64,000 nt of DNA from Zhongshania aquatica (GTDB taxonomy: Bacteria; Pseudomonadota; Gammaproteobacteria; Pseudomonadales; Spongiibacteraceae). Position numbers and translations under genes: made by a program. Numbering within the stretch: the stretch's first letter is position 1; the number at the start of each line of letters is the position of its first letter. Below are positions 17,371 through 45,609 of this stretch, piece by piece. The DNA lies in the NCBI RefSeq assembly GCF_027257955.1, contig NZ_JANZNQ010000003.1:62001-126000 (forward strand), in the 5' to 3' direction. Below the pieces are notes generated by a model, which was not told where the DNA came from, did no database searches, and saw only the letters and a program-made list of their open reading frames with translations.

Positions 17371-19458
17371 CTAAAACTGCCAATCTGCCCGCAAATACAT
17401 AAAATAGTCATTGCGATCAAACTGAAATCCACCGCGGTCGGAACTCAGCTGTTCTGCGCTGAATTCAAACTCGAAAGTCCAATTCTCAGTTGGTTCGTAT
17501 TGCAATCTCATACCCGGCTGTAACGAAGTTTGACTCCCCGCCAAATCACTGTAGTCGCGCTGATAAAACTGTAACTTTGGCCGCAGGCGCCAGTGCTGGC
17601 CTATTGGTAGACGGGTTTCCAAGCCTAGAGAATATAGCTTACTTCTGGTCAATTCCGAGTAACGCAGTGTAATCCAGCTTATTGTGCGCTCCTTCCAAAT
17701 ATCGTTTGCGATAAGTTGTGCACTGAAATTACCTTCCACATCGGTTCCGTCAAAGCCGGGCACCCCAAATGATTCTGGCGTACCTGTAAGCTGCCAGAAG
17801 CTTGTATCAAGAGACCAGCGCCAATGTGTTGAAAACCGACGCGATGCACCGAGCGCCAAAGATTTACTAATCGCAGTACGGTCAAGTGCGATGGTCTCAA
17901 AATCATTTTGACTGATCCCACTTGCCTCGAGCTGATTCAAATCGGTGACGGCCTGCCCAATAAGCGCATTGGACACACTCAGCATTGGCGAACGCCGATA
18001 ATCTGCCGAAAAATAATAATGAGATTCGTCATCACCAAACCAGTTTGCACTAAGCAACGCGGTATTGAGTTCTGCGAAACCGGTGTCGTAATCCAAATAG
18101 GAAAACCAAGAGTAGCGCTGGGACTGGTAACTGACCTCCGCTCCCAGTGCTTCACGCTCAATAATATTGCCGCGTTCCTGCTTAGTAACAAACACATTGC
18201 TGCGCCACGGCGATTGACGGGCTGCGAGATCCAGACTAAGGCCATAGACCTGTGCATCGGAGTTCACCGACACATCACGACTAGACAGCACTGGATAGCC
18301 CCAAACCAAATTGACGCCAAAACTGTCGCCAACGTCGGAGTGGTACCGAACGCCATCGAAACGCCCCAAGATGCCTTCCCCACTCACATTTTGCCTGCCG
18401 ATGCGTATTTGCTGTCCCGCAGGTTTATACAATGTGTCGATATAGGCTTTGCTCAAACGTTTCGGGTTGAACGTATCAAACTCAAAATCCTTCCAGTAAC
18501 CACCAGAAACGACCAAGCGGGTGTCGTATGTATCGCTTCGATAACGGCCATTCAGGTTTAAATCAGTTATCCACGCCGATTGAAGCACCTCGCTTCCGCT
18601 TCCACCATTGTCTGTACTGTAGTATTGATAGGCGTTGCTGAGCACACCGAACCAGCGTAGTGAAGAGGCTTTTTCTGCGCTTTTCTTGTCCGGTGCCGCC
18701 GCCACTTCGTCTACGTCCATTAGTGAAATACCCGCCAGACGTTGACGTACACGATTGACCCCGTTTGATTGAGGATAGCGCTCCAGAAAAAGACGGTAGC
18801 TCGTTGCTGCCTCATCGAACTTGCTTAGCCGTTCTTGGGCCACACCAAGATATTCCAGTGCTTTTTCCTGCAAGGAATTTGGTGGGCCACGAAGGACTTC
18901 ACGATATAAAACTTCCGCAGCGGCTGCATCACCTTTGGCAAGTGCTGCGCGTGCGGCGGCGAATTTATCTTCAATTCCTTCGGGTAGTTGTTGGGTCGGT
19001 GAATCCACAGCAGTCCATAGACTTTGCTGATCGGCACTGATCTGAAAGCGGCAATTCACATTGCGGTTAAAATCGAAGCGTAACCATAGTTGGCCGGCAA
19101 TCCATTCTGAATTCACCCGATTAAGGGGCAATGATTCACTCGCCTGCCAAGGCAAAAATTCATTACCACTATAATCAGTGGCGGCATTTTGCCCGGTAAA
19201 TGCGGGCTGCAATCTCACCACACAAGAATTACCTGTTTCCGACTCCACGGCGGCAAGCTGAAATCTATTTGCCAGATCAAGTTGGAAGGCCGCGCTGCCC
19301 TGCTTTTCAAAAAGTACATTGATCGACTCAACCCACGCAGGTTCTGCGACTAAAGAAGGGGCGAACACAGCCAAGACTAGAAGTATCATCAAGTAAATAC
19401 AGCCTTGCCGTATGCAATCAGATCTGCGCGAATACGTTCTATGCATCGTGATATTCAT
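17371..19458 (-). CDS. Large outer-membrane beta-barrel with N-terminal TPR domain (candidate porin of a porin-cytochrome conduit)
   Basis: 695 residues. I chose ATG 19458 because GGGGA, inside the end of the preceding cytochrome gene, lies nine bases before it; a TTG at 19467 overlaps that gene's stop. Order: signal peptide ending near residue 38, a beta-type periplasmic segment to about 150, tetratricopeptide repeats at about 160-250 (AARAALAKGDAAAAEVLY, EYLGVAQERLSKFDEA), then from about 265 a long run of alternating amphipathic strands rich in Tyr/Trp with a terminal Phe (YLRADWQF), as in outer-membrane barrels. No haem motif. It is last in the operon after two multihaem cytochromes, the position a porin sheath would take. 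A carbohydrate or generic porin role cannot be excluded. Confidence 0.8.
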   Translation of the reverse strand: MNITMHRTYSRRSDCIRQGCIYLMILLVLAVFAPSLVAEPAWVESINVLFEKQGSAAFQLDLANRFQLAAVESETGNSCVVRLQPAFTGQNAATDYSGNEFLPWQASESLPLNRVNSEWIAGQLWLRFDFNRNVNCRFQISADQQSLWTAVDSPTQQLPEGIEDKFAAARAALAKGDAAAAEVLYREVLRGPPNSLQEKALEYLGVAQERLSKFDEAATSYRLFLERYPQSNGVNRVRQRLAGISLMDVDEVAAAPDKKSAEKASSLRWFGVLSNAYQYYSTDNGGSGSEVLQSAWITDLNLNGRYRSDTYDTRLVVSGGYWKDFEFDTFNPKRLSKAYIDTLYKPAGQQIRIGRQNVSGEGILGRFDGVRYHSDVGDSFGVNLVWGYPVLSSRDVSVNSDAQVYGLSLDLAARQSPWRSNVFVTKQERGNIIEREALGAEVSYQSQRYSWFSYLDYDTGFAELNTALLSANWFGDDESHYYFSADYRRSPMLSVSNALIGQAVTDLNQLEASGISQNDFETIALDRTAISKSLALGASRRFSTHWRWSLDTSFWQLTGTPESFGVPGFDGTDVEGNFSAQLIANDIWKERTISWITLRYSELTRSKLYSLGLETRLPIGQHWRLRPKLQFYQRDYSDLAGSQTSLQPGMRLQYEPTENWTFEFEFSAEQLSSDRGGFQFDRNDYFMYLRADWQF

Positions 19459-19463
19459 AATGA

Positions 19464-21056
19464 TCAATCCCCAAAATCAGGATCAGTTACCCGATGTTGC
19501 CCGGAACGTGTGCGCTGAATCCGCGAGAAAGTGCTGTCGGTATAGGTATGACAGGCCCCGGTACAATCACGTAGTTCACTAACGGTATAATTTATCCTCG
19601 GAGAGCTCACCTTGGTGTGCTCCCCTGCCCGGTATTGATTGGCGTGACAGCCAGCACAGTCAGGTTGATAAGCCGGCGTGCTCCAATTAACCGTTTCAGA
19701 ATTACCTCTGTGGCAATCAACACACTGCAGGTTTTGCCGATGATCACCTGGGTAGCCAGGGCTTTGATGACGGAATGTTGTCGGAACCCAGCGCGTGGTG
19801 CTGTGGCAATAATCGCATTGAAGATTGCTTACAAAGTGACCGGTATTTTTGCCGGTGGCGCTACTGCCATTGTGGCAGGAGTCACAACTAGCACTGACAT
19901 TATTATGATCAAAGTTGGCGGGCACCCACGCATTACTGGTATGGCAAACATCACATTCAGCATTTGTATTAATGTGCGTACTCGATTTTCCTGTGGCCTG
20001 ACTGCCGTTATGACAGCTTGAACAAGGCTGCGTAATACCGCTGTGATCAAACTCGGCTGGGATCCATCCGGTAACCCGATGGCAGTCATCACATTCCAGA
20101 TTAGTGCTAACGTGATTCATCGTTTTACCTGTGGCCTGAGTGCCGTTATGGCAGCTTGAACAAGACTGCGTAATTCCACTGTGGTCAAATCCGGCGGGGA
20201 TCCAGCCCGTAACCCGATGGCAGTCATCACATTCCAGATTAGTAGGAACGTGATTCATGGTTTTTCCGGTTGCCTGACTGCCGTTATGACAGCTTGAACA
20301 AGGCTGCGTAATACCACTGTGGTCAAACATAGTCGGCAGCCACGCTTGGGTGCCATGGCAAGCTTCGCACTGCTGGTTAGTAGGAATGTGATTTGGTGTT
20401 TTACCCGCAGCCTGGCTGCCGTTGTGGCAACTAGAACAAGCTTGAGTAATATCACTGTGATCGAATCCAGCCGGGAGCCAAGCCACCGTCCGATGACAGT
20501 CGTTACACTCCAAGATCGTGGCAACGTGATTCATCGGCTTACCTGTGGACTGAACGCCGTTGTGGCAGCTAGAACAGGCGGCAGTAATACCTGAATGATC
20601 GAATACTGCGCGCTGCCAGTTAAACGTATTGTGACAACTATCGCATTGATTACTGGACTGCGGATGATGGATTGGTTTGCCCGGCTGAGTCTGGCCGTTG
20701 TGGCATTGACTGCACTCCCCCCTTACCTGGCTGTGGTCAAACCGAGTAGTGACTTGCCAATCCACCGAGCGATGGCATTCAGAGCATTCATCTGTTGTCG
20801 GCATGTGACGAAAGGTTTTTCCGCCCGCAGGTATTACCGAGCCGCCATTGTGGCAAGAAACACAGCGCGTTGGTGTACCCTTGAACTGCCCGTTGACGTG
20901 GCATTCCTGGCATTCGACATAACGATGAAATCCCTGAAGAGGAAAACGACTGGCGTCGTGGTCAAATTCAACCGCCCATCCTGATGACATCCCGCATAAG
21001 AACATCGTCAACGCAAAAACAATATGGCAGTACTTTTTATTAGAATACATCGCCAT
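19464..21056 (-). CDS. Exported multihaem c-type cytochrome with 20 haem sites in 46-residue repeats
   Basis: 530 residues with a signal peptide ending near residue 28. I count 19 CXXCH motifs plus one CX3CH (residues 498-503, CTGACH), so up to 20 covalent haems. Residues 106-428 are seven tandem units of exactly 46 residues, each starting FDH, with one CXXCH about 10 residues in, an NH pair about 26 in and a second CXXCH about 32 in. The FDH and NH histidines are natural distal ligands, giving bis-His haems. GAGGTG within the end of the preceding gene serves as its SD; the gap is three bases. It should act as a long electron wire in the periplasm, within the barrel or outside. Confidence 0.93.
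   Translation of the reverse strand: MAMYSNKKYCHIVFALTMFLCGMSSGWAVEFDHDASRFPLQGFHRYVECQECHVNGQFKGTPTRCVSCHNGGSVIPAGGKTFRHMPTTDECSECHRSVDWQVTTRFDHSQVRGECSQCHNGQTQPGKPIHHPQSSNQCDSCHNTFNWQRAVFDHSGITAACSSCHNGVQSTGKPMNHVATILECNDCHRTVAWLPAGFDHSDITQACSSCHNGSQAAGKTPNHIPTNQQCEACHGTQAWLPTMFDHSGITQPCSSCHNGSQATGKTMNHVPTNLECDDCHRVTGWIPAGFDHSGITQSCSSCHNGTQATGKTMNHVSTNLECDDCHRVTGWIPAEFDHSGITQPCSSCHNGSQATGKSSTHINTNAECDVCHTSNAWVPANFDHNNVSASCDSCHNGSSATGKNTGHFVSNLQCDYCHSTTRWVPTTFRHQSPGYPGDHRQNLQCVDCHRGNSETVNWSTPAYQPDCAGCHANQYRAGEHTKVSSPRINYTVSELRDCTGACHTYTDSTFSRIQRTRSGQHRVTDPDFGD
19776..20741 (-). repeat. Seven tandem 138-bp coding repeats
   Basis: The 46-residue haem units of the 20-haem cytochrome are also repeats at DNA level with a period of exactly 138 bp. 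The units starting at residues 244, 290 and 336 are nearly identical in protein (GITQPCSSCHNG, ATGKTMNH, NLECDDCHRVTGWIPA), which points to recent unit duplication or gene conversion. Confidence 0.9.
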
Positions 21057-21059
21057 GTT

Positions 21060-22667
21060 TCACCTCATTTCAACTTCGGTAAACGTACTTGTGTTGTGAC
21101 AGCGGTCGCAGCGCTCGCCATAGGCGCCTCGGTGTTCGTCATCGGCTTTATGACAGCTACCACACAGTGGCGCAGTGCCTTTAAGGGTGTCTAATTTCTG
21201 GCTGTGACAGCTCCCACAGGAGACATTTTTGTGGGCACCATGGAGCGGAAATTCACTTTGGGTGTCGTGATCAAAACGCCAGCTGCGCCATGACACCGGA
21301 TGATGACAATTAGCACACTCTTGACCGAGATTGCCTTTGTGTGGATCGTTTGCGCCGTGACAGTCCGCGCACTTTTTTCCGATACCAGCGAATACAAAAT
21401 CAATATGGCATGATTCACAGGCTTGAACCGCATGCATTCCCAACAGTGGAAAGTCAGTTAGATCGTGCACAAAGCGAATATCGCCATTCCAACTCCCCTC
21501 GCTGTGACACTGCTGACAGTCGGTGCCAAGGGATTTTTTGTGCACATCGTTCGACTGATGGCAGTCGTAACAGGTCTTATCAGCAATGGGTGCATTTACA
21601 TCACCTTTATGGCATTGCCCGCAGGCAACTTGTTTATGCGCACCACGCAATGGGAAATCAAAATCAGCATGGTTGAAAACTGTTTTACCCCAGCGATTAT
21701 TGTCATGACACTGATCACAGCGATCGCCGTTCTTCCCGAAATGAGGGTCATCATTTTTATGGCACGCTGAACAAGTCGTCGGTGCATGTTTCGCCGCGAC
21801 ACCAGGCGTGTGACAACTCTCACAACTCAGTGTCTTGCGGGCGCCCTGCAGCTCGAACTTGGTATCTCGCTTATGGTTGAATTTATGCTCGGTCCATTTT
21901 TGCGTGGCGTGACAACTTTCGCACTTCTCTCCAAAGCCATTGCTATGAACATCGTCGATGCGATGACAGGACGCACAATCGGTCTGAGCTTGTGTGAAGT
22001 CGGCGCTGTGATGACACTGCCCACAACTTGCTTTTTCGTGCATGCCAAGCAGTGGGAATTTGGTTTTCTGGTGATCAAACACCACCTCACGCCATGCCAT
22101 TGCTGAATGGCAATCGCCACAGGAGTCTCCCTGCCCGCCTTTGTGAATATCGTCGCTTTTATGGCAATCGACGCATTGTCCTGGCGCTTCGCTAAATTTC
22201 TTTTCTTTGTCGTGGCATTGATTACAGGGGACACCCTGATGATGCCCAAGCAACTGAAAGTCGGTGCTTCCATGATCAAAAACAGCACTATTAAGCTGTA
22301 CGATATCTGCATTCCTACCGCGATGTTCTGAGTGGCACAAGCGGCATTCACTTGTCGCGATGCCGGGCTTTTTGGCATGAAATCCCAGATTATTTTTAAG
22401 ATCAGCCGCAACTTCCTTGTGGCAATCTAGGCACAGCGGGTTTTGATTCTGATCTTTAAAGCTGGAATGGCAGGCTTTACAGTCGCCATCAAATTTCTTG
22501 TGTGCCTCACTAAGCTCGCCAGGGCTTAGCATTCGCTCCAAACCAAAATCAATAGCTAGCGCTGAGCCTGACACACTCATCAAAAGCAACAGCGTCAAGC
22601 CGAGCGGCGCGCAAGCTTGGCGCGTCCAGTTGCAAAAAATCTGACAGATTTTCCGCATAATATTCAT
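21060..22667 (-). CDS. Exported multihaem c-type cytochrome with 21 haem sites
   Basis: 535 residues; signal peptide with cleavage expected after ALA at about 38. I count 21 CXXCH motifs and no other Cys pairs. Three lie in an N-terminal part (to residue 111); the other 18 fall in six units of 66-68 residues beginning FDH/FNH/FVH at residues 130, 197, 263, 331, 399 and 465. Each unit has three CXXCH and conserved His in F-x-H, G-x-H and DD-x-H, enough for bis-His ligation. It resembles doubled-CXXCH/cytochrome c7-like proteins. It starts 15 bases after the cytochrome b gene, so it is the likely first periplasmic acceptor from the inner membrane. Confidence 0.93.
   Translation of the reverse strand: MNIMRKICQIFCNWTRQACAPLGLTLLLLMSVSGSALAIDFGLERMLSPGELSEAHKKFDGDCKACHSSFKDQNQNPLCLDCHKEVAADLKNNLGFHAKKPGIATSECRLCHSEHRGRNADIVQLNSAVFDHGSTDFQLLGHHQGVPCNQCHDKEKKFSEAPGQCVDCHKSDDIHKGGQGDSCGDCHSAMAWREVVFDHQKTKFPLLGMHEKASCGQCHHSADFTQAQTDCASCHRIDDVHSNGFGEKCESCHATQKWTEHKFNHKRDTKFELQGARKTLSCESCHTPGVAAKHAPTTCSACHKNDDPHFGKNGDRCDQCHDNNRWGKTVFNHADFDFPLRGAHKQVACGQCHKGDVNAPIADKTCYDCHQSNDVHKKSLGTDCQQCHSEGSWNGDIRFVHDLTDFPLLGMHAVQACESCHIDFVFAGIGKKCADCHGANDPHKGNLGQECANCHHPVSWRSWRFDHDTQSEFPLHGAHKNVSCGSCHSQKLDTLKGTAPLCGSCHKADDEHRGAYGERCDRCHNTSTFTEVEMR
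21099..22280 (-). repeat. Six tri-haem coding repeats of about 200 bp
   Basis: Six protein units of 66-68 residues (starts at residues 130, 197, 263, 331, 399, 465) share the pattern F-x-H, F-x-L-x-G-x-H, C-x2-CH, C-x2-CH, DD-x-H-x-G, C-x2-CH, W. Unlike the neighbouring 46-residue array, length varies slightly and sequence is more diverged, so this array is older. Confidence 0.85.
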
Positions 22668-22682
22668 CAGATATTTTTAACC

Positions 22683-23537
22683 TCAGTAATAATGCACCGC
22701 CCAGACGTGCAGAGTCGCCGTCAGTAACATCATCACAAAAAATGGCAAATGCAGTACATGCCACCAAGAGAACAATCGTTCAAAAAACCGCAGTTGCGCG
22801 AGCCTACCTAAGGTCTCTGTATACGCCTTAAGAGTTGTTTTTGAATCACGCCAAAGTGCAAACGCGGCTGGATCATTCTGACGCTTTGCAGCGCGTCGCA
22901 AAAACCGCTGCAAACGTCGTCGCCGAGACCCTGCAAGAACCGCATCCACAGTGGTGAGCTTCTCCAATTCGCTGGGTAGTAGGCTGTTATAGAGCCTATT
23001 TACAATATCGATCAATTCTGGAAACGGCTCAAACTGGCTTAGTAGTTGTTGACGTTCGCGATTTGCTTGCACTGCTAACATTTGACCGTTGGCGCGCTGT
23101 CCGTACAAGCCAATATGAATCTTGGTGTAAATGTACCGACCCACAAAACCACTGATAACAACGAGTATCATGCAGCTTAATGCCACCCTGCTATTAAGTG
23201 AGCCAAATCGAAAATTTGAATGGAAGGCGATGGCTAACGGGCCCAAAACACCCAGCATCATGTGAATTCGAAACCAATGCCGAATAGGCATTAATTTTTG
23301 AAGTTTCGCCGATCGTTTTGCAAGTGGGTAGCTAAGCAGCAAAAGCATGCCACTGACGCCAATTATCCCTAGCGCGTAGCCAAATCCGCTCTCTGCGCTG
23401 AGAATTTGATCCTGTCTCTGAATCCAACCCCAAACAAGGATAATGAACGTGGTGGTGAAAAAAAGCACAGAGCTAAGTCTGCCACTCTTAGATGGACGCA
23501 AGGTCTTAGGTAAATTCGTCGTTGCATCTGCCGTCAC
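22683..23537 (-). CDS. Transmembrane di-haem cytochrome b-like protein
   Basis: 284 residues with five membrane helices at about 22-40, 53-71, 90-108, 117-137 and 257-280. Helix 3 carries His92 and His106, helix 5 carries His263 and His277: both pairs are 14 residues apart, the spacing that holds two stacked b-haems in ferric reductase, b561 and bc1-type proteins. Basic loops after helices 2 and 4 put the N-terminus and the long loop 138-255 (with RRRR at 205-208) in the cytoplasm. It is first in the operon with both multihaem cytochromes and the barrel. I infer that it moves electrons across the inner membrane; no named family is claimed. Confidence 0.78.
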   Translation of the reverse strand: MTADATTNLPKTLRPSKSGRLSSVLFFTTTFIILVWGWIQRQDQILSAESGFGYALGIIGVSGMLLLLSYPLAKRSAKLQKLMPIRHWFRIHMMLGVLGPLAIAFHSNFRFGSLNSRVALSCMILVVISGFVGRYIYTKIHIGLYGQRANGQMLAVQANRERQQLLSQFEPFPELIDIVNRLYNSLLPSELEKLTTVDAVLAGSRRRRLQRFLRRAAKRQNDPAAFALWRDSKTTLKAYTETLGRLAQLRFFERLFSWWHVLHLPFFVMMLLTATLHVWAVHYY

Positions 23538-23577
23538 TTAATTCTTCCTTAATGTAACAAATATATCATTCACATTA

Positions 23578-23605
23578 GAGAGTGTGTTTGGCAGAACACG
23601 TTCTC
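23578..23605. promoter_or_regulatory. Imperfect palindrome in the divergent cytochrome/reductase intergenic region
   Basis: Arms GAGAGTGTGTT and AACACGTTCTC match at 9 of 11 positions around a 6-base spacer. It lies 40 bp before the cytochrome b start and 106 bp before the reductase start, so one regulator bound here could control both operons. The regulator is unknown. Confidence 0.5.
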
Positions 23606-23711
23606 AGATACTGATACTAAAGCTAGCAGAAGAGGCAAATATTAGCCACACATTTTGTAAGGTTTTTATGTTATAACACGGGCTCTCTCATGCGCATTTT
23701 GGAAGCAACCG

Positions 23712-25025
23712 ATGCCACCTAACATCTCGGCTATGCTGATATACCTACTTCCGCTAATGGCCATCATGGGCTTATACATTTTTTCTCAGCAACGTCGTCA
23801 CAAACGGAGTCTTGAGTTGCTTCGCGAGGCTACTGAGACAGGATTACTTGAACCTGCGTCGCTACATCCATTAATAAATGAAAGTCTTTGTATCGGCTGC
23901 AAGTCATGTATAAATGCCTGCCCCGAACACGATGTTCTCGGCCTAATAAATAATATTGCAACCTTAGTGGGGCCTAGCAATTGCATTGGTCACGGTGCTT
24001 GCCGAGAAGCCTGCCCAGTCAACGCAATTGATTTGGTGTTCGGCACAGCGACGCGAGGCGTTGATATCCCGCTGTTGCAGGCCGATTTTCAAACATCAGT
24101 GCCAGGCATTTATATTGCTGGCGAATTGGGAGGAATGGGACTGGTTAGAAACGCCATAACTCAGGGAGTTCAAGCGGTGGACTGCGCTGCAAAAAATTTG
24201 CGCAAATGTCCAAACGACCCGCTAGATCTTGTTATTGTGGGCGCGGGGCCCGCCGGACTCGCCGCTTCACTTGCGGCAAAGGAGTTGGGCCTCAGCTATG
24301 TCACACTGGATCACGAATCCGGACTCGGTGGCACCATCGCGCATTTCCCACGGGGCAAACTGGTTATGACACGCCCCGCTACCTTGCCACTGGTTGGCAA
24401 GTTTCAGTTTGTAGAAACGAGTAAGGAGCATTTGTTGGCGTTTTGGCAGGACGTTGTCGACAAACATCCGCTAAATCTTCGTTTCTCCGAAGGCGTTACG
24501 GCAATCGATGGCGATATCACGAACGACTTCACTACAACGACAACATTAGGTCAGTTCCGCAGCCAGCGCGTATTGCTTTGTATCGGCCGACGAGGCACAC
24601 CGAGGAAATTGAACATTCCGGGAGAAGACCTAAATAAAGTCGCTTATCGCCTCCAAGACGCTACTCAGTACGCTGGTATGAATGTGATGATCATGGGTGG
24701 CGGAGACAGTGCCCTAGAGGCTGCAATTAGTCTCGCTGAACAAGAGAATACTCAGGTTAGTTTGTGCTATCGCGGCAAAGCCTTTAACCGCGCAAAATTC
24801 AAAAACAGAGAGCGAATACAAATACTGAGCCAAGAAGACAAGCTGACTCTCCATATGGAGTCTGAGCCAACTGCTATTGAGCGGGAGACCGTAACATTGA
24901 CTACTCCAGACGGCACCAAAGTACTACCTAATCAGGCCGTCATCATTTGCGCTGGAGGAGTACTGCCGACAGCATTTCTCCAAAATATCGGCATTCAGGT
25001 GGATACTAAATATGGCAGTCGCTAG
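23712..25025 (+). CDS. Membrane-anchored ferredoxin/FAD-NAD(P) oxidoreductase fusion
   Basis: 437 residues. Helix 7-24 followed by QQRRHKR anchors it with the enzyme in the cytoplasm. Residues 58-110 are a two-cluster ferredoxin: C60, C63, C66, C70, then C91, H94, C97, C101, where His takes the place of one usual Cys. Residues 113-162 (SVPGIYIAGELGGMGLVRNA) resemble the closing piece of thioredoxin-reductase-like flavoproteins, placed here before the FAD domain. The FAD motif GAGPAG is at 177-182 and an NAD(P) motif MGGGDSALEAA follows near 320. The CxxC disulfide of thioredoxin reductase is absent. I infer NAD(P)H oxidation feeding the divergent cytochrome operon. Confidence 0.85.
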   Translation: MPPNISAMLIYLLPLMAIMGLYIFSQQRRHKRSLELLREATETGLLEPASLHPLINESLCIGCKSCINACPEHDVLGLINNIATLVGPSNCIGHGACREACPVNAIDLVFGTATRGVDIPLLQADFQTSVPGIYIAGELGGMGLVRNAITQGVQAVDCAAKNLRKCPNDPLDLVIVGAGPAGLAASLAAKELGLSYVTLDHESGLGGTIAHFPRGKLVMTRPATLPLVGKFQFVETSKEHLLAFWQDVVDKHPLNLRFSEGVTAIDGDITNDFTTTTTLGQFRSQRVLLCIGRRGTPRKLNIPGEDLNKVAYRLQDATQYAGMNVMIMGGGDSALEAAISLAEQENTQVSLCYRGKAFNRAKFKNRERIQILSQEDKLTLHMESEPTAIERETVTLTTPDGTKVLPNQAVIICAGGVLPTAFLQNIGIQVDTKYGSR

Positions 25026-27018
25026 ACTTATATTTGGCGCCACAACGTCGCTAAAACAACTACAGCTAGTATTCATTATTGTCTTGAGCATTGGCGTCTC
25101 TGCTGCAAATGCAGAGATAGATGTCTGGCAAGAATACGCGCAGCTAATACGTGTCCGCCATTATGGTGAGGCCGCTGTTCTAATCACTGCTCAGGCTGAA
25201 AAAGGTGATTCTCGAGCGTGCTACGAACTTGCACAGCTTTATCGGAACGGAAGAGGTGTCGAAAAAAACGAGTCTAAAGCCCGCACGCTATTATTGCGGG
25301 CAGCCAAACAAGATCATATACCCAGCCAGTATTTACTTGGACTGTTCTATAGCAAGGGAACCGGTGGGCCAGAGAGCCGGACAGAGGCGAGGCGATGGCT
25401 GGAAAGTGCCGCACAGCAAAACTATGGCCCGGCCAAGTCAGCGCTAAATTCGCTTAACACTGAACGGGAAAACTCAGAACTCAGTAAGGCGGAGATTCTT
25501 TCCGCTGCTAGAAATTCTGATGCAAATAATACAAAAATACAAAACACCATCCAGCGTGCAATTCATGAGAATAAACATCTCAGCACCTTGGACAGCGATG
25601 GCAATACCCTACTCAGCATTGCTGCTATTTGGGGTGCGCAGCCCACAGCTGAACTATTGCTCAACGCTGGCGTGGATATCAATCAACAAAACCGCTTTGG
25701 AGAAACCGCGCTCCACTTGGCGGTTCAAGAACAACAGTTGAGCGCACTAAATTGGCTGCTCAGCCATAAAGCGAGCTTAGACCTGCAAAGTGTCGCCGGT
25801 AAAACCGCCCTTCACATTGCCTTGGAACGTAATCTCACCGACTATGCCACGCGCCTGCTAGCAGAAAAAGCAAATCCGCTTATCACCGACAAGGACGGAA
25901 AGACCGCGCTGAATATTGCGGTACAACGCCAAAACAAGCCAATACTTGCGCTACTCGCTCGCGATGGATTTCGGCCGGAAGCCACTAATGACATAGAACG
26001 GCGGCTAAAAATAGCACAGCAAGATTCCGGCGACGGTATCTACCCGATTCAGCTGGCCGTTGAACGAGATGATTTACCTCTTATTAAAAAACTAATTTCA
26101 GGTAGCACGACTCCTTGGCAAGCCAATGCACAGGGGCAAACCTTAATAACCTTAGCTGCACAGCACGCGTCTGCGGAAACATTGCGTTATTTATTAAAAC
26201 TAGCACCGAATCCATCAGAGCGTGGTCCGCAAAAGCGCAATGCTTTGTTTTTTGCGCTGGATGCGGATAACAACGAAAACCTACAAGTATTGCTGGACAA
26301 CGGAATTTCCCCCACTGATGAGGATGAGACCGGCCTCAGTGCAATTGAATACGCATTTAGCGTGCGCCCTGAATCCGCGTCACGATTAATCAGACAACTT
26401 CCCTCTTCCCAGTGGCAGGCATTGTGGCTACCTATGGCGGCGGCACATGATCAAAACGAAACTTGTCTGCTATTTATAGATCAGGGTGTCGACGTCGATA
26501 CTGTTGACGAGACGGGCAAAACAGCGCTGTGGTATGCGAGCAAAAGGGAAAACGGCGAGCTGGTGGAAATTCTACTAGGAGCTGATGCAAACGTTCTGAT
26601 CAGCGACACCAACGGCGATACCCCAGTACATATCGCTGCTGGATACTCACCAACATCCCTAGAGATATTGCTTAGAAATAGCGATGCAGTGAGCCTTCTA
26701 AATACAGCAAATCATACTGGAAATATGCCCCTCCACCTTGCTGCAAGTCATTCTCAGGCAAAAAATATTACGCTGTTAGCAAAGCTAGGCGCCGATATAA
26801 ACAGTCGGGACAACAGCGGAAATACGCCGCTTATGCTGGCGGTTTTAGCGAACTCTATCGACACTATCGAAGCCGCCTTGGTCTCTGGCGCTGCACGTAA
26901 TAAGCGGAACAAACAGGACCAAGACGCGCTGACAATGGCCCAACAACTTGGTTATAAAAAAGCGGTCGACGCGCTAAAAAAACCTCAGAAAAACGGTTTT
27001 ATTGACCTGTTTAAATAG
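25012..27018 (+). CDS. Exported Sel1-repeat and ankyrin-repeat protein
   Basis: 668 residues. It overlaps the reductase gene by 14 bp; AGGTGG nine bases before the ATG supports this start. Signal peptide to about residue 34 (ANA-E). Residues 50-150 hold Sel1-like repeats (ACYELAQLYRNGRGVEKN, SQYLLGLFYSKGTGG), and from about 195 to the end run about a dozen ankyrin repeats (GNTLLSIAAIWG, GETALHLAVQEQ, GKTALHIALERN, GNTPLMLAVLAN). No catalytic motif. A periplasmic scaffold is likely; because it is coupled to the reductase and divergent from the cytochromes, it may assemble or hold that system. That role is inference. Confidence 0.85.
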   Translation: MAVARLIFGATTSLKQLQLVFIIVLSIGVSAANAEIDVWQEYAQLIRVRHYGEAAVLITAQAEKGDSRACYELAQLYRNGRGVEKNESKARTLLLRAAKQDHIPSQYLLGLFYSKGTGGPESRTEARRWLESAAQQNYGPAKSALNSLNTERENSELSKAEILSAARNSDANNTKIQNTIQRAIHENKHLSTLDSDGNTLLSIAAIWGAQPTAELLLNAGVDINQQNRFGETALHLAVQEQQLSALNWLLSHKASLDLQSVAGKTALHIALERNLTDYATRLLAEKANPLITDKDGKTALNIAVQRQNKPILALLARDGFRPEATNDIERRLKIAQQDSGDGIYPIQLAVERDDLPLIKKLISGSTTPWQANAQGQTLITLAAQHASAETLRYLLKLAPNPSERGPQKRNALFFALDADNNENLQVLLDNGISPTDEDETGLSAIEYAFSVRPESASRLIRQLPSSQWQALWLPMAAAHDQNETCLLFIDQGVDVDTVDETGKTALWYASKRENGELVEILLGADANVLISDTNGDTPVHIAAGYSPTSLEILLRNSDAVSLLNTANHTGNMPLHLAASHSQAKNITLLAKLGADINSRDNSGNTPLMLAVLANSIDTIEAALVSGAARNKRNKQDQDALTMAQQLGYKKAVDALKKPQKNGFIDLFK

Positions 27019-38829: not shown

Positions 38830-39801
38830 TTAGGCTTCCGGTTTAAACAAAAGGTTAATCAAGCGCGTAGCCGCCAAATAGGGGGTAGTTTCACCCTCGG
38901 TTACCTTATGATTAAGCTCAGGTAATAGCACTTTTACTTCGGGGTTTTGTTTGAGCTTCATGTCGAGCATTTCATGCAGTAGTTTAGTCATCCATTCGCG
39001 GGCTTGACGCGAACGTTTTTCCTGCATCGAACCGTTCTTTGTGGCGTCAATTTTAAAGCCACTAATCATGCCCCAAATCGCTTCGATATTTTCATTCTTT
39101 AGCGCGGAGCAGCTCATTACTTGCGGCGTCCAGAAACTGTTCTGACGAAGCAAATGTAGGGCATTTTCATAATGGCGGCGGGTTTGCTGGGCGAGGTTAA
39201 TACTTTCACCATCGGCCTTATTGATCACTAAAGCATCGGCTAATTCGATGATGCCCTTTTTAATACCCTGTAGCTCATCACCCGCATTGGGCAGCATAAG
39301 CACCATAAAGAAATCGACCATGCTGGCGACCTCGTATTCTGACTGCCCTACACCCACGGTTTCCACCAGAATAACGTCGTAGCCCGCCGCTTCGCAGAGC
39401 AACATGGTTTCGCGGGTTTTTTGGGCTACGCCACCCAAAGACCCTTCGGAGGGCGATGGACGAATAAACGCGTCTTTACTGCGCGACAGCAATTCCATAC
39501 GGGTTTTATCACCCAAAATAGAACCACCTGCAATCGGCGAACTAGGGTCAACTGCCAATACTGCAACACGTTTGCCTTGGCTTAATAAATACAGGCCAAA
39601 GGCTTCGATAAATGTGGACTTACCCACGCCCGGAATACCCGTAATACCAATGCGGATACTATTGCCTGTATACGGCAGAAGTTGCTCCAACATTAATTGG
39701 GCTTCGGTACGGTGCTCTACGCGCTTACTCTCTACCAAGGTAATAGCCTTAGCCAGGGCGCGGGAATTGCCGCTTTTTAATGCTTCGATATCTATTGCCA
39801 T
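38830..39801 (-). CDS. meaB: Methylmalonyl-CoA mutase-associated G-protein chaperone
   Basis: 323 residues, cytoplasm. GTPase that protects and reactivates the B12 enzyme methylmalonyl-CoA mutase (also annotated ArgK). Walker A GIPGVGKST at about 56-64, a DPSSP signature, ETVGVGQSE switch and NKADG base-specificity motif are intact. It lies downstream of the mutase gene on the same strand, separated by a terminator-like hairpin. Confidence 0.95.
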   Translation of the reverse strand: MAIDIEALKSGNSRALAKAITLVESKRVEHRTEAQLMLEQLLPYTGNSIRIGITGIPGVGKSTFIEAFGLYLLSQGKRVAVLAVDPSSPIAGGSILGDKTRMELLSRSKDAFIRPSPSEGSLGGVAQKTRETMLLCEAAGYDVILVETVGVGQSEYEVASMVDFFMVLMLPNAGDELQGIKKGIIELADALVINKADGESINLAQQTRRHYENALHLLRQNSFWTPQVMSCSALKNENIEAIWGMISGFKIDATKNGSMQEKRSRQAREWMTKLLHEMLDMKLKQNPEVKVLLPELNHKVTEGETTPYLAATRLINLLFKPEA

Positions 39802-39820
39802 AATAATTTCAAGCTAAACG

Positions 39821-39862
39821 AAAAACGGGAGACGCAGAACGCATCGGCGCTGAGTCTCCCGT
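39821..39862 (-). terminator. Rho-independent terminator after the mutase gene
   Basis: On the minus strand ACGGGAGAC and GTCTCCCGT form a 9-base stem around a 20-base loop, followed by TTTTTC. It lies between the mutase stop and the meaB start, so meaB is expressed by read-through or from its own promoter. Confidence 0.8.
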
Positions 39863-39878
39863 CAAACGTCTGCTTTAC

Positions 39879-42038
39879 TTATGCCTTATATGCTTCGTTA
39901 ACAGCGTCTAGTACACCGCGTGCGGCCAAAGGAATTTTAGTGCCCGGACCAAAAATACCTTTTACGCCTGCGTCATAAAGGAAGTCGTAATCTTGGCGGG
40001 GAATAACACCACCGGCGATCACGATGATGTCATCGGCACCAACTTTCTTCAGTTCTGCGATCAATTCTGGAATCAGGGTTTTGTGACCCGCCGCTTGAGA
40101 TGACACACCAACCACATGCACGTCGTTTTCCACCGCCTGCTTCGCCACTTCCTCTGGCGTAGAGAACATCGGCGACAAGTCGATATCAAAACCGACGTCG
40201 GCAAAAGCCGTGGCGATAACCTTCGCTCCGCGGTCATGACCGTCTTGCCCCATTTTACACACTAGCATCCGTGGGCGACGGCCGTGCTTATCAGAGAAAT
40301 CTTCGATATCTTTGGTTATGCCCTGCCAGTTTTCGTCATCTTGGTAAGCGCTGCCGTAAACACCAGACACAGTTTGTGCCTGTGCATTAAAGCGGCCGAA
40401 CTCACGCTCCATCGCAAAGGAAATTTCACCAACCGTGGCGCGTAAACGGGTTGCTTTAACTGCGAGGTCTAGCAAATTGCCTTCACCGCCACAGGCGCAT
40501 TGGTAAATCGCCTCAAGCGCATCCTCAACCGCAGCTTCATCGCGAGAAGCGCGAATTTTTGCCAGTGCCGCCACCTGAGATTCACGTACCGCATTATTGT
40601 CGATATCGAGAACATCAACATCGTCTTCTTCAGACAAGGTGTATTTGTTGACGCCGACAATAACGTCTTCACCACGGTCAATACGAGACTGCTTACGCGC
40701 TGCCGATTCTTCGATACGCAGTTTTGGCAGACCTGTTTCAATGGCTTTAGCCATACCGCCCTTTTCTTCCACTTCTTGAATTAATTCCCAAGCGCGGTCG
40801 GCGATGTCTTTGGTCAAGGATTCCATCATGTAAGAACCACCCCAAGGATCAACGACCTTGGTAATGCCGGTTTCTTCTTGAATAATTAACTGAGTATTAC
40901 GTGCGATACGCGAAGAGAACTGGGTTGGCAGTGCAATCGCTTCGTCCAATGCATTGGTGTGCAGTGACTGGGTACCACCGAAAACAGCTGCCATCGCTTC
41001 GATAGCGGTGCGGACGATATTGTTGTAGGGATCTTGCTCAGTCAGCGACCAGCCAGAAGTTTGGCTGTGGGTACGCAGCATTTTTGAGCGCGAATTCTTT
41101 GGTTCAAACTCGCTAACAATTTTTGACCACAGCAAACGTGCAGCGCGCATTTTGGCAATTTCCATATAGAAATTCATACCAACGCCCCAGAAGAAGGACA
41201 GACGGCCAGCAAACTTATCGATATCCAAGCCCGCAGCGATCGCGGTGCGGATGTATTCCTTACCATCAGCTAGCGTATACGCCAGCTCTAGCGCGGCGTC
41301 AGCACCGGCTTCTTGAATGTGGTAACCGGAAATTGAAATGGTGTTGAATTTCGGCATATTGTCGGAGGCGTAAGCAATGATGTCGCCGATAATTTTCATT
41401 GAGGGTAGCGGTGGGTAAATGTAGGTATTCCGCACCATGAATTCTTTAAGAATATCGTTCTGAATAGTACCGGATAGTTGATCTTGACCCACGCCCTGCT
41501 CTTCTGCAGCGACAATGTAACCAGCCAGAACCGGCAATACCGCGCCGTTCATGGTCATGGATACCGACACTTTATCTAATGGGATCTCGTTGAATAGGAC
41601 TTTCATGTCTTCAACAGAGTCAATCGCCACTCCAGCTTTACCCACATCGCCAGTTACACGGGGATGATCCGAGTCGTAACCGCGGTGAGTAGCAAGGTCG
41701 AAGGCGACAGATACACCCTGTCCGCCCGCGGCCAAGGCTTTGCGATAGAAGGCGTTAGATTCTTCAGCAGTTGAGAAACCCGCGTACTGTCGAATCGTCC
41801 AGGGACGACCGGCATACATTGTTGGCTGCGGGCCACGAATAAAAGGTTCTACACCCGGTAAGGTGTTTGTGTACGGCAGATCCTGAGTATCTTCTTTGGT
41901 ATATAAAGGCTTAACGTCGATACCTTCTGGGGTATGCCAAACTAAATCATCTAGCGTCTGGTTGCCTTTGGCGAGGGTTTTATTCGCCATTGCTTTCCAC
42001 TCTTCTACGGAAGTCTCGGGAGCTTTGTAGTCAGCCAT
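39879..42038 (-). CDS. scpA: Methylmalonyl-CoA mutase
   Basis: 719 residues, cytoplasm. Adenosylcobalamin enzyme that interconverts (R)-methylmalonyl-CoA and succinyl-CoA. The substrate-binding barrel ([31 protein letters not shown]) comes first; the C-terminal B12-binding domain has the ligand motif DGHDRG with the cobalt-coordinating His, then [17 protein letters not shown]. Length fits the single-polypeptide catalytic form (ScpA/MutB). Neighbours mce, meaB and the carboxylase genes complete the propionyl-CoA route. Confidence 0.97.
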
Positions 42039-42231
42039 ACTAATACCTGTCTGTTTTCAATGAGGGTCAGTGTTTGGTGGCTCTGAATACGTATTCATTT
42101 TAGCGCTGGCGACATCAACGAGATGCGAACCCTGCCAGAACAAAAATTTACGATAATTCAGAGCGTCCTTAGTAAAACGCGATCGTGCCGCTTATGTGCA
42201 TCACCACCTGTTGCGCGGCATCTATCGAAAA

Positions 42232-42645
42232 TCAGTGGTGATCATCTCCTGGCTGACTTAACTCGATGAGTACGCCGTCGCAAGATTTAGGATGAATAAA
42301 TATAACTTGGCAATTATGCGCACCCAGTGACGGTGCGTCGCTGAGAAATTGGTAACCTAGACCCTTCAACCGCGCGACGTCGGCCACGATATCGTCGGTG
42401 CTAAAGCACAAATGGTGAAGACCACCAGGCTTTTTCTCCAGATATTTAGCAATGGGACCTTCGCCACGCAGCGGGCTGACAAGTTCAATGCTAGTTGATT
42501 TAAGGGGGAAAAATGCAGTTGAGGTCTTCGCTGTTTCTACCTCTTCAGTCCCTTCGTAAGTGAGGCCAAAGTCTTCTAAAAAGCGTTTTATTGCTTTTTC
42601 TAAGTCGGGTACTGCAACTGCAATGTGATCAAGTCCGGTAATCAT
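42232..42645 (-). CDS. mce: Methylmalonyl-CoA epimerase
   Basis: 137 residues, vicinal-oxygen-chelate fold. Converts (S)- to (R)-methylmalonyl-CoA. Two beta-alpha-beta3 modules; metal ligands are suggested by His in GLDHIAVAVPDLE, His in GLHHLCFSTDD and Glu in VLIELSQP. It lies between the carboxylase and mutase genes in reaction order. Confidence 0.94.
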   Translation of the reverse strand: MITGLDHIAVAVPDLEKAIKRFLEDFGLTYEGTEEVETAKTSTAFFPLKSTSIELVSPLRGEGPIAKYLEKKPGGLHHLCFSTDDIVADVARLKGLGYQFLSDAPSLGAHNCQVIFIHPKSCDGVLIELSQPGDDHH

Positions 42646-42663
42646 CTGAATACTCCTAATGTT

Positions 42664-42692
42664 TCAAAAAGGCCGGCAGCGCACCACCGGCC
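42664..42692 (-). terminator. Rho-independent terminator after the biotin carboxylase subunit gene
   Basis: Minus-strand stem GGCCGG/CCGGCC with a 10-base loop and TTTTT directly after. It lies in the 54-bp gap between the carboxylase stop and the mce start, so the propionate genes form at least two transcripts or an attenuated one. Confidence 0.85.
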
Positions 42693-42699
42693 AATGCCA

Positions 42700-45543
42700 T
42701 TACTTCAGGGTCGCTAAAAACTCGATGGTTTTAGCGCGACGTGCCTCGGCAATTTCCTCAGGGGTTTCCATGACGATTTTTTCGTCTGGGATGATTTTGA
42801 ACAATGGCTGACCTTTCTTAATGATCACCCCATCGCCTTCCACCAACACTTTATCGATGGTACCGGCAAATGGCGCAATAACTTTGTTGAACATTTTCAT
42901 TACTTCAACAATGTACAGGGTATCGCCAGCTTCGAAATGATCGCCAACATTAACGAACACGTCCATGCCCGGCGCTTCGCGTGGATAGTACATACCGCCG
43001 CTAGCAGCCAATACTTCATCTGACTTCGCCGCTGGTGGTGGAACAAGTACCTTCGCCATACGTTTTTGCAGAGTTTCGTCGGTCAATCGATCTGGAATCG
43101 TAATACTCAAATCCGCATTGACACTCAGTTCGAAGAAACCCGTTTTATCTGCAATATAAGCCAATACAGACAGTACTTCTGTACCCGACATGTAACCAAC
43201 GTGCGCGCTGCGCACCGCCGCCCACTCGTCAGCGTCAATCCCTTTTGGCGCCTTATCTGAGGCAAGTAGCGCTTCAAGCGCAGGGAAGTCCGCCGCGTCT
43301 ACTTTCTCGTTCAAGGTTTTGTAGAAGCTGACCGCAGCACTCAGGATCTCGTGGTCGTGATCCCAGATCATGTAACGGGCGGGTTTGCCAGTTTCAAAAT
43401 CCATATTTAGGAAGTGGTACAGCTTCTCTAATAGCTCAATGGGGTTAACCGCCCATTTAATCTTACCTTTTTCAATGCTCAAGCTGTCTTTGTTCATGCT
43501 CAGCCAACCCGCCATATAGTGCGGTTCGGCAAATAGGCGCTCCAACGGACGAATCATCAGCAATTTCTTGGCATCTAAGGCCGCAGCCCATGCGCCAGCA
43601 TTGGCGCCAGCTTCACTAACATAGCGCTGGCGAATTTCATCGTAGGCCACATCCAAATCAATTTGGTTTGCCTGTTCTTTAAGCAAACCAACCGCCGTCA
43701 GATAAGGAACAATAAAGCGTGTCGAAGGACGCGCATTGATCCCATTGCCGATAAACCAGTGAACAAGACCATAGTGGAATTCAAGGTTTGTCGACAAATC
43801 CTTACCACGCAGTTCAGTGCGGCGCAGAATTTCCGCTAAGCGCTGGTAGCTGCTTAGGCGGGTATCACCGGTAGTGAGCAGCAAAGCGATGTTTGAGTCA
43901 TACGCACCAGCAAGGTGGTATTTCATGAATACATCGGTATCCGGGTTGTGGGTAGAAATGCCTTGATCGTCACGGATTTCACCGGGAATCGCGTTGGACC
44001 AGTTTTCGATAACGCCGCCAGCATGAGGTTGCAATGCTTGGTTGGTGGCGTTCATACGCGCTTCAACAGAGGTTTTCTCACGCAGAATACGAGTTGGTTT
44101 AGGTAGATTTTTGCCATGACGTGCCAGCAGTACCATAACCTCAACTAAACTCTCGGCAATAAAATAATCGCCAGAGTCGTCAGGGTTGGTGAACTTGAGC
44201 TTGTAGCAAAGTTCTGTCACGCGATGCTCGACCTGAATACGGGTATTCATTTCCATGAAGTAATGCGATTCGCCATCGACAATACATTCAAACGTGCCCA
44301 CAGAATCCAGTTTTACCGCTTCACCAAAGACAGCGCCTTCTTCTTCCATACGCTGCAAAATAACCAAGTCTTTCTTTAGTTGCTCGGCCTCGGCTTTGCT
44401 ACCAGCAGCTTCGGCTACTTTAATTGCCGCTTCCAGCTCTTCTTCAGTGACTGACACTTCGAGAAGCTTCTGCTCATGCATCTGCAAAGAACAGTCGCGA
44501 CCGCCCATGGTCATACACCATTCGCCATTACCCACTACCTGAATTTCCTGGTGGCGAGTTGTGTCGATGTTCATTTCGATAAGGACGTTTTTATTGTCGC
44601 CCACACCGTTGGTTTTCAACTCGATCAGACACTCTTGTACCAATGACGGTACTTTAGCGACGGCCTTTTCAAGCTTCTCTTCAATCGTCGCACCCTCATA
44701 GGAGTTTGCAGATTGCAAAATACGCTGACCTTTACCACCGCCACCAGCAATCGCTTTTAAGCGGAAGCGGTTGTTCGGCTTTTCTGCCAACATGCGCTTG
44801 GCTTCAACTTGCAGCGCAAGTCCGATATCAGCGGCAGTTATAATATCGATACCCGCCGCATATGACGCAGCTAACAAGGCTAGCGCTTGCTCTTCAACGT
44901 CTTTGCAGGCCGCGAAATCCACGCTCAGTTTGTTGTCTTTAGCGCATTTCTCAAGACCATCGGTGCCGTACTTGGCAAAGAGAGCCAAACTTGTCGCATT
45001 GTTCACACCAGGAGTAACCGATACGCCGGTTTCCAGGGCGGTACGCTTTGCTTGGTCTTTCATACCGGCAGACTTTTGGGTGTAAGAGCACGGTCCGATA
45101 AAGTTCAGCCCGGCCTTTTCCATAGACTCCACCATTTCGGCGTCTTCGGACATAAACCCATAACCAGCGAAGATTGCGTTGTAGCCGTTGTCGTAAGCAA
45201 TGCGGATGATTTGCTGAATACGGCGAACGCGCTCTTCTTTGGTGGCACCGGTGTAGTCCGGTACACGGTGAACCCGATCTGGATCGGTCAGCGTGCGCAG
45301 CTCAGGTGCCAATGCGTTGGTGTAAGTGATTGAGTCTTTTTCAGAAAGCAAAATACCGTAGTGGTGAATGCCCATTTCATCGAAGACATCCATGGCTTCC
45401 TTACGGATTGGGCCACGGCAAATTATTAATGGTTTCAAATCATTACATGCGAAACTTCTAGTCCATGCTGTGTTTGATTTGGCCAGTTGACGGTCCTTAT
45501 GCACCATCGGATTGTTTAGGTAGTAATTGTTACTTGCTTGCAC
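42700..45543 (-). CDS. Large biotin carboxylase/biotin-carrier subunit of an acyl-CoA (propionyl-CoA) carboxylase
   Basis: About 947 residues from GTG 45543, chosen because GAGG lies nine bases before it; TTG 45579 and ATG 45507 are other options. Order: N-terminal biotin carboxylase domain (LIICRGPIRKEAMDVFDEMG), ATP-grasp region with IAGGGGKGQRI and the EMNTRIQVEHRVTE active site, a long middle part (about 500-840) that I do not recognise, and a C-terminal biotinyl domain with EVMKMF, the Lys that carries biotin about 65 residues from the end. Classical PccA is near 660 residues, so this is an enlarged form. It follows the beta subunit, which sets its likely substrate. Confidence 0.88.
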   Translation of the reverse strand: MQASNNYYLNNPMVHKDRQLAKSNTAWTRSFACNDLKPLIICRGPIRKEAMDVFDEMGIHHYGILLSEKDSITYTNALAPELRTLTDPDRVHRVPDYTGATKEERVRRIQQIIRIAYDNGYNAIFAGYGFMSEDAEMVESMEKAGLNFIGPCSYTQKSAGMKDQAKRTALETGVSVTPGVNNATSLALFAKYGTDGLEKCAKDNKLSVDFAACKDVEEQALALLAASYAAGIDIITAADIGLALQVEAKRMLAEKPNNRFRLKAIAGGGGKGQRILQSANSYEGATIEEKLEKAVAKVPSLVQECLIELKTNGVGDNKNVLIEMNIDTTRHQEIQVVGNGEWCMTMGGRDCSLQMHEQKLLEVSVTEEELEAAIKVAEAAGSKAEAEQLKKDLVILQRMEEEGAVFGEAVKLDSVGTFECIVDGESHYFMEMNTRIQVEHRVTELCYKLKFTNPDDSGDYFIAESLVEVMVLLARHGKNLPKPTRILREKTSVEARMNATNQALQPHAGGVIENWSNAIPGEIRDDQGISTHNPDTDVFMKYHLAGAYDSNIALLLTTGDTRLSSYQRLAEILRRTELRGKDLSTNLEFHYGLVHWFIGNGINARPSTRFIVPYLTAVGLLKEQANQIDLDVAYDEIRQRYVSEAGANAGAWAAALDAKKLLMIRPLERLFAEPHYMAGWLSMNKDSLSIEKGKIKWAVNPIELLEKLYHFLNMDFETGKPARYMIWDHDHEILSAAVSFYKTLNEKVDAADFPALEALLASDKAPKGIDADEWAAVRSAHVGYMSGTEVLSVLAYIADKTGFFELSVNADLSITIPDRLTDETLQKRMAKVLVPPPAAKSDEVLAASGGMYYPREAPGMDVFVNVGDHFEAGDTLYIVEVMKMFNKVIAPFAGTIDKVLVEGDGVIIKKGQPLFKIIPDEKIVMETPEEIAEARRAKTIEFLATLK

Positions 45544-45609
45544 GTCGAATAACCTCGTTAGCGAATCGTCTAGAGTCAATGAATTACGGAACAGCTCTAC
45601 ACTTGGAAA

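Follow-up and report, generated by a model that had tools for sequence, protein, structure and literature searches.

The 64,000-nucleotide stretch of the Zhongshania aquatica genome analyzed here (the window, part of contig C41 of a 4.49-Mb assembly) carries a six-gene locus at positions 17371-27018. We read this locus, with a probability of roughly 0.6, as a trans-envelope electron conduit of the PCC3 type, with a two-subunit transmembrane NAD(P)H dehydrogenase as its inner end. PCC3 is a porin-cytochrome cluster described by He et al. in 2017 (PMC5566968; here and below, published work is cited for its passages on such clusters). Judged from its sequence, the four-gene minus-strand core of the locus is a PCC3, and the conduit itself is not new. 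The new content lies in the conserved partners of this core, a putatively NADPH-type flavoprotein and an ankyrin protein, and in a stepwise wire length.

A six-gene locus with a PCC3 core

All six reading frames are unbroken. On the minus strand, in the order of transcription, lie the genes for a di-haem inner-membrane protein, the 'IMP' of PCC3 (22683..23537, 284 amino acids (aa)), a 21-haem cytochrome predicted to span the periplasm as a wire (21060..22667, 535 aa), a 20-haem cytochrome predicted to form an extracellular wire (19464..21056, 530 aa), and an outer-membrane barrel protein, the PCC3 porin (17371..19458, 698 aa). The plus strand encodes a membrane-anchored Fe-S/flavin NAD(P)H oxidoreductase (23712..25025, 437 aa), followed by an exported Sel1/ankyrin repeat protein (25012..27018, 668 aa), the two genes overlapping by 14 bp. 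The 174 bp between the divergent units (23538..23711) are a probable shared promoter region; a consensus scan found no promoter-like site inside it, and promoter and terminator scans yielded no more sites than in shuffled sequence. The G+C content of the six genes (0.475 to 0.508) compares with 0.477 for the window. The original prediction, made from the letters of the window, had placed the genes at these coordinates with minus-strand gaps of 15, 3, and 5 bp, and this arrangement stands, the third gap provided that the barrel gene starts at the ATG at 19458 (695 aa). A start at the upstream TTG at 19467 is also possible, giving 698 aa and an overlap of 4 bp with the 20-haem gene.

Related loci were collected through the membrane protein. 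A single scan of 84,980 species genomes gave 484 relatives, the best 80 of which were kept (loci L037-L116). A search of 369 genomes of the class found any match in 66, and regions were fetched around 47 of the matches (L147-L193), all but one weaker match having E below 1e-40. Removal of 12 loci with a duplicate membrane protein from the pooled 127 left 115 distinct loci. A gene was counted as present if it lay anywhere in the fetched piece, upstream counts require at least 5.5 kb of upstream DNA, and the E cut-offs (1e-40 for the membrane protein, 1e-100 for the oxidoreductase) were placed by hand at gaps in the score lists.

Gene order, membrane-protein motifs, the 21-haem multihaem cytochrome (MHC), and homology to a named carrier agree, which is why the core is assigned to PCC3. 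Both have the order membrane protein, periplasmic MHC, extracellular MHC, and porin. He et al. describe a membrane protein of about 300 aa with five helices, two WX3HX13H motifs, and SGxxG, all of which the window protein matches, and a periplasmic MHC of about 21 haems with a residue-to-haem ratio of 22-39 (window: 21 haems, 25.5). The extracellular MHC of PCC3 has many haems and repeats, as does the window protein with 20 motifs at 23-aa spacing, its extracellular place being a prediction; the PCC3 median is 34 haems, and 10-35 are listed for Gallionellaceae (PMC10734462). Locus L072 comes from Bradyrhizobium sp. STM 3843, one of the PCC3 carriers that He et al. name, and has membrane-protein, oxidoreductase, and ankyrin genes. 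PCC3 has already been reported from Gammaproteobacteria (PMC5566968) and from several Fe(II) oxidizers (PMC5566968, PMC10734462), and it was called functionally unverified in PMC12442390. This synteny bears out the suggested link to the large-porin, many-haem type of Fe(II) oxidizers and supports the predicted function of an inner-to-outer-membrane conduit.

The membrane protein carries WX3HX13H at residues 88-106 and 259-277 and SGFVG at 129-133. Among 114 distinct relatives (one locus, L193, was left out as another system), both WX3HX13H motifs occur in 113 and SGxxG in 112. A hydropathy cut-off alone gave four helices; the fifth of the five predicted helices is the stretch bearing the first His pair. 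With helix limits set by hand, loop charges would place the His pairs, likely b-haem ligands (His 92/106/263/277), at opposite membrane faces and the long basic loop in the cytoplasm. The earlier label 'di-haem cytochrome b' is upheld by the two histidine motifs and SGxxG and thus stays motif-based, as no Pfam or NCBIfam family matched at E 0.1 and the best PDB match reached only E 0.44.

MtrCAB, MtoAB, and PioAB resemble the locus in combining a barrel with periplasmic and outer multihaem cytochromes, but they use decahaem proteins and quinol-linked CymA, as against 21 and 20 haems here. Membership in MtrAB/MtoAB was not supported: the locus has no decahaem MtrA-type cytochrome, and the barrel sequence did not match the NCBIfam model for MtrB/PioB (TIGR03509) at E 0.1. 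A Methylobacter bioanode paper (PMC13322032) was likewise set aside as a match, since the cluster it describes is MtrAB-type. PCC4 and other clusters of MHC and inner-membrane protein also have a five-helix di-haem membrane protein. PCC4 subgroup II includes an Fe-S protein gene, and most such clusters other than PCC3 carry another redox protein; PCC4 differs in having no extracellular MHC and a membrane protein without significant overall homology to that of PCC3 (PMC5566968).

The divergent oxidoreductase and ankyrin genes

In the 84 distinct loci with at least 5.5 kb of upstream DNA, the oxidoreductase gene was found in 75 and the ankyrin gene in 63. Where the oxidoreductase gene was present anywhere, it lay upstream and divergent within 7 kb in 90 of 97 distinct loci. 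By this synteny the divergent pair belongs to the system, as first supposed. The accompanying remark, which called a link with a ferredoxin-flavoprotein and a b-type module unusual, did not hold: the b-type module defines PCC3, and the ferredoxin-flavoprotein is present in those 75 loci. In the text of He et al., as distinct from figures and supplement, we found no mention of the oxidoreductase and ankyrin genes. The same scope applies to the absence of ankyrin from the main text of the PCC3 papers (PMC12016527 being searched for PCC3 terms only) and of ferredoxin from that of PMC5566968, PMC12442390, and PMC13386937. A literature search narrowed by further terms likewise found no paper joining a multihaem cytochrome with ankyrin.

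Of the 369 class genomes, 42 passed the cut-off for the membrane protein (E<1e-40), 43 passed that for the oxidoreductase (E<1e-100), and 41 of the 44 having either passed both (Fisher p 7e-51, with no correction for kinship). The membrane protein occurred alone in G535, which has an oxidoreductase fragment, and the oxidoreductase alone in G522 (72% complete) and G443. A search of 341 genomes of the order found any membrane-protein match in 32 and one with E below 1e-40 in 8, including the own genome. All six genes are present in four of the seven strong relatives (L022, L024, L025, L027); L026 and L028 run off the contig end yet keep the divergent pair, and L023 is a 4.5-kb fragment with a different gene order. 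In the phylum, 36 of 398 genomes gave any match and 6, including the own genome, one with E below 1e-70.

That the genes are a decayed or unconnected collection, with barrel and cytochromes forming no conduit, would fit their patchy distribution: among 18 genomes of the genus, a full-length membrane-protein match was found in the own genome only, two others giving weak partial matches. The intactness of all six genes, their tight spacing, and an order largely kept across the class make this reading very improbable. The proteins flanking the locus were matched in 9 and 6 of the 18 genus members (one match among the 6 being weak); they lie far apart in G009, the sole genome compared for position, and no empty site was definable as a sign of recent insertion. 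Ten stretches of viral contigs matched a pattern, and no membrane-protein relative was encoded in any of them.

The oxidoreductase starts with a single N-terminal helix, which was also predicted in 87 of 94 relatives, and continues with a ferredoxin-like part and a flavin part. The first cluster motif, CxxCxxCxxxCP, is present in 86 of the 94 and the second, CxxHxxCxxxCP, in 92, and because of this second motif one Fe-S cluster may have a His ligand. The nearest sequences to the flavin part are those of the bacillithiol disulfide reductase YpdA/Bdr, followed by thioredoxin reductase (TrxR) and TrxR-type ferredoxin-NADP reductases. An AlphaFold2 model (pLDDT 90.8) gave the same order, with YpdA/Bdr 7a7b as best match (Z 23.6, root-mean-square deviation (rmsd) 3.0 over 263 residues). 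All 94 relatives have the glycine-rich FAD motif and 90 the nucleotide motif GGGDxA; arginines 354 and 360 do not vary among 62 aligned sequences. By comparison with TrxR, we take GGGDxA and the two arginines to suggest that the enzyme prefers NADPH.

The segment DFQTSVPGIYIAGELGGMG resembles the C-terminal FAD motif of TrxR/YpdA-type enzymes, and its AGELGG core precedes the glycine-rich FAD motif in 93 of 94 relatives. In both best PDB alignments, the segment falls at the C terminus of the target, as a very weak second match (0.6 and -0.7 bits). When it was moved to the end, the Pfam Pyr_redox_2 match, which had stopped at position 253 of 291 with 74.0 bits, ran on to position 291 with 84.4 bits, compared with position 274 and 78.2 bits for a shuffled control. 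Against the PDB, the rearranged order moved the target end of the best match from 267 to 291 and hardly changed that of the second best (275 vs 274). A circular permutation of the flavin part is thus likely, with modest support. The oxidoreductase itself is unusual in this permuted order of FAD motifs and in the conserved His of its second cluster motif. In one single-contig genome (L159:10407-12032) the gene is split into two frames, with one TGA within the match of the first piece, which suggests a pseudogene or a sequencing error.

The kinship of the flavin part with thiol-disulfide reductases (YpdA, TrxR) would also suit a different role, in which the oxidoreductase and the ankyrin protein serve biogenesis or repair, for instance by holding haem or cysteines in the reduced state while the very haem-rich wires mature, and carry no catalytic current. 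Ankyrin proteins can act as helpers of haem enzymes, as for the catalase of Campylobacter. The stretch presumably corresponding to the disulfide site of TrxR holds no cysteine, however, and the predicted cytoplasmic side together with two Fe-S motifs fits electron delivery to the membrane better. Other Fe-S flavoproteins also lie near distant relatives of the membrane protein, and overall we consider a biogenesis role improbable.

Multihaem wires and outer-membrane barrel

The first cytochrome of the operon has 21 CxxCH motifs, one per 25.5 aa, and the second 19 CxxCH plus one CX3CH at a near-perfect spacing of 23 aa, which confirms the predicted counts of 21 and 20 in this form. Over 1000 shuffles, versions of either protein averaged 0.29 CxxCH and never exceeded 3, and a chance origin of the motifs was thereby ruled out.

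The number of CxxCH in 96 complete first cytochromes was 21 (73 copies), 18 (13), 24 (6), or 27, 33, 23, and 10 (one each). The copy with 10 is that of L193, and the copy with 23 (L110) is without one motif near its end. With L193 omitted, the count is a multiple of three in 94 of 95 copies, which come from related loci and are not 94 independent events. A repeating spacing of about 17, 18, and 33 residues was seen in the window protein and in the 20 relatives whose spacings were inspected, and, in keeping with three-haem modules, the window protein scores 44.8 with the three-haem domain model TIGR04257, above its cut-off of 40. A periplasm-spanning role of the inner MHC has already been proposed (He et al., PMC5566968; PMC10734462), and the latter paper lists 21, 24, and 27 haems for it. 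The three-haem step is a new observation here; no statement of it was found in the passages on PCC3 in the literature, where no dedicated search for it was made.

The second cytochromes vary freely. In 65 complete genes the CxxCH number is odd in 57, and 56 also contain one or more CX3CH or CX4CH; complete genes range from 5 to 73 CxxCH, and a gene running off its piece reaches 98. As first counts are mostly 21 and move in threes and second counts range from 5 to 98, the inner wire is nearly fixed in length and the outer wire is free. The best decahaem model gave the window 20-haem protein 84.5 bits against a cut-off of 192.2. The extremes are 73 (L069), 90 (L077), and 98 CxxCH (L092) in Bradyrhizobium and 89 (L111) in a gammaproteobacterial metagenome-assembled genome, the gene of L069 being complete and the other three running off the fetched piece; the largest haem count then known to He et al. 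was 85. The own genome also encodes a cytochrome c maturation gene of the CcmF/NrfE family.

The barrel protein has a signal sequence and ends in F. Its AlphaFold2 model (pLDDT 88.3, pTM 0.60) comprises a beta domain (46-155), TPR-like helices (165-250), and 22 strands over 269-697, counted by hand. The description 'large outer-membrane barrel' is apt for the length of the gene (698 aa) and less so for the modeled strands, which are fewer than the up to 42 given for PCC3 porins by He et al. with another counting method. Structural neighbors are SusC-like and TonB-dependent receptors, OprD-type porins, and pilus ushers, the best match being 5t3r_D (Z 19.6, rmsd 4.1, 378 residues); Foldseek placed a Campylobacter porin first (E 1.1e-11, TM-scores 0.30 and 0.46). 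No Mtr-type barrel was among the matches listed in either structure search, which is not evidence against kinship. A search of the own genome for the MtrB family gave no match, and as the control search also matched nothing, absence is not established. A barrel of the same family was found in 57 of the 64 loci with at least 5.5 kb of downstream DNA, and at least two multihaem genes in 61 of these, so that the doubt voiced with the original prediction, an unrelated porin, did not materialize.

Proposed electron path and direction

In the path that we propose, cytoplasmic NADPH would reduce the FAD of the anchored oxidoreductase, whose two Fe-S clusters would pass electrons to the cytoplasmic-side b haem (H92/H263) of the membrane protein and from there to the periplasmic-side b haem (H106/H277). 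The 21-haem wire would then carry them across the periplasm, and after passage through the barrel they would exit along the 20-haem wire. The exported ankyrin protein could be a periplasmic scaffold or an assembly factor. Net flow would be outward, as in NADPH oxidases and ferric reductases, delivering excess reductant to an external acceptor. Since the partner is NADPH-type, outward flow is probably the favored direction. Export of electrons from NADPH runs downhill with the help of the membrane potential; transfer from Fe(II) to NADP+ against this potential is strongly uphill.

This NADPH-oxidase-like reading draws mainly on the wider membrane-protein family, which lies near an Fe-S flavoprotein in three settings with two different flavin folds. 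Besides the locus itself, eight regions were fetched from weaker matches of the order search (L029-L036). In L030, L033, L034, and L036, the distant relative adjoins a protein that combines a pyridine-nucleotide flavin part with a pair of cyclic-nucleotide-binding domains and 4Fe-4S motifs, and decahaem proteins come next. In L029 and L031 it follows an FAD_binding_6/NAD_binding_1/2Fe-2S protein and precedes a seven-haem protein, and it has one WX3HX13H plus further HX13H pairs. The matches in L032 and L035 were dropped by the reading-frame filter and were not resolved. In L193, a flavoprotein of the cyclic-nucleotide-binding type lies about 6 kb from the membrane protein. NADPH oxidases, too, carry two b haems on two HX13H pairs in one membrane protein, a parallel also drawn by He et al. 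for these and ferric reductases, and the feed by a cytoplasmic NADPH flavoprotein would likewise be shared. The window system differs in that its flavoprotein is separate, TrxR/YpdA-like, and equipped with Fe-S motifs, that the acceptor would be a multihaem wire, and that the membrane protein has no Pfam or PDB match to the ferric reductase/NOX domain in sequence comparison.

He et al. proposed instead, by analogy to cytochrome b of bc1 and of hydrogenase, that the PCC3 membrane protein exchanges electrons with the quinone pool and that these are taken in from Fe(II) or another donor; the oxidoreductase would then be a side branch or a maker of NADPH. The presence of PCC3 in several Fe(II) oxidizers is consistent with this model, as is the rise of the membrane-protein gene of PCC3 copy 2 in strain CL21 when cells could oxidize iron (PMC12442390). 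It leaves the conserved flavoprotein without a central role, and by established thermodynamics the uphill step named above speaks against it. The two PCC3 clusters of Sideroxydans ES-1 were down on Fe(II), and the study concluded that they played no part under the conditions used (PMC8788666). On magnetite they were not induced, one being mostly below detection and the other showing similar levels across samples (PMC12016527). These expression data count against a role in Fe(II) oxidation, and we regard quinone-coupled uptake as unlikely, if the most serious alternative to NADPH-driven export.

Several points weigh against NADPH-driven export. Besides the CL21 result, the membrane protein may have a quinone site, so that the quinone model of He et al. 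stands. The ES-1 data concern a distant relative, and in the PCC3 literature, as cited, biochemistry of any PCC3 protein was not found. Nine of the 84 loci are without the oxidoreductase (L056, L057, L060, L105, L166, L177, L180, L192, L193): in the class survey, it lies elsewhere in the same genome, outside the fetched piece, for L060, L166, L177, and L180 and as a fragment beside the locus for L192; L056, L057, and L105 miss it in the fetched DNA, and L193 belongs to another system. With 21 of the 84 loci lacking it, the ankyrin gene is less tightly tied to the conduit. Co-occurrence of oxidoreductase and membrane protein could also arise through assembly or regulation. Their Mantel correlation was 0.71 (82 loci), and all pairs of five genes gave 0.77 to 0.90 (34 loci); with high values for every pair, this is no specific sign of contact. 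Finally, the loci were picked by likeness to the window membrane protein, and more distant PCC3 are therefore under-represented.

L033 belongs to the own genome and marks a second multihaem locus there (L033:199-13034, contig C18:9198-22033). Its genes encode a cyclic-nucleotide-binding Fe-S flavoprotein, a di-haem membrane protein, a one-helix FHA-like protein carrying 10 CxxCH, a protein with an HbpS domain that begins like a lipoprotein, a protein of 636 aa ending in what resembles an outer-membrane barrel, and an LVIVD-repeat protein with 10 CxxCH. Similar gene sets occur in L030, L034, and L036. This locus may be a second conduit under cyclic-nucleotide control; a literature search found no paper on an FHA domain with a decahaem cytochrome in Gammaproteobacteria. 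At L029:8907-12333 and L031:8787-12299, an FNR-type flavoprotein, a di-haem membrane protein, and a seven-haem cytochrome are encoded in a row, in L031 with a nickel-dependent hydrogenase gene about 3 kb further on. Elsewhere in the window (38830-47397), genes for MeaB, methylmalonyl-CoA mutase, and biotin-carboxylase and carboxyl-transferase domains look like an ordinary propionyl-CoA route.

PCC3 has been listed for years as a possible iron oxidase, and He et al. link it to the quinone pool. The conserved NADPH-type partner changes the hypothesis to test for PCC3 to an NADPH-driven current. Tentatively, and at somewhat less than even odds, PCC3 as a whole may be a widespread NADPH-driven export route in which a split NADPH oxidase, made up of the Fe-S flavoprotein and the di-haem membrane protein as separate subunits, by-passes the quinone pool and feeds cytoplasmic reductant into a length-quantized, periplasm-spanning multihaem wire leading outside. 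Haem counts that move in threes would make the inner wire a possible gauge for the width of the periplasm. If the reading is true, many bacteria would hold a means of exporting reductant that by-passes respiration.

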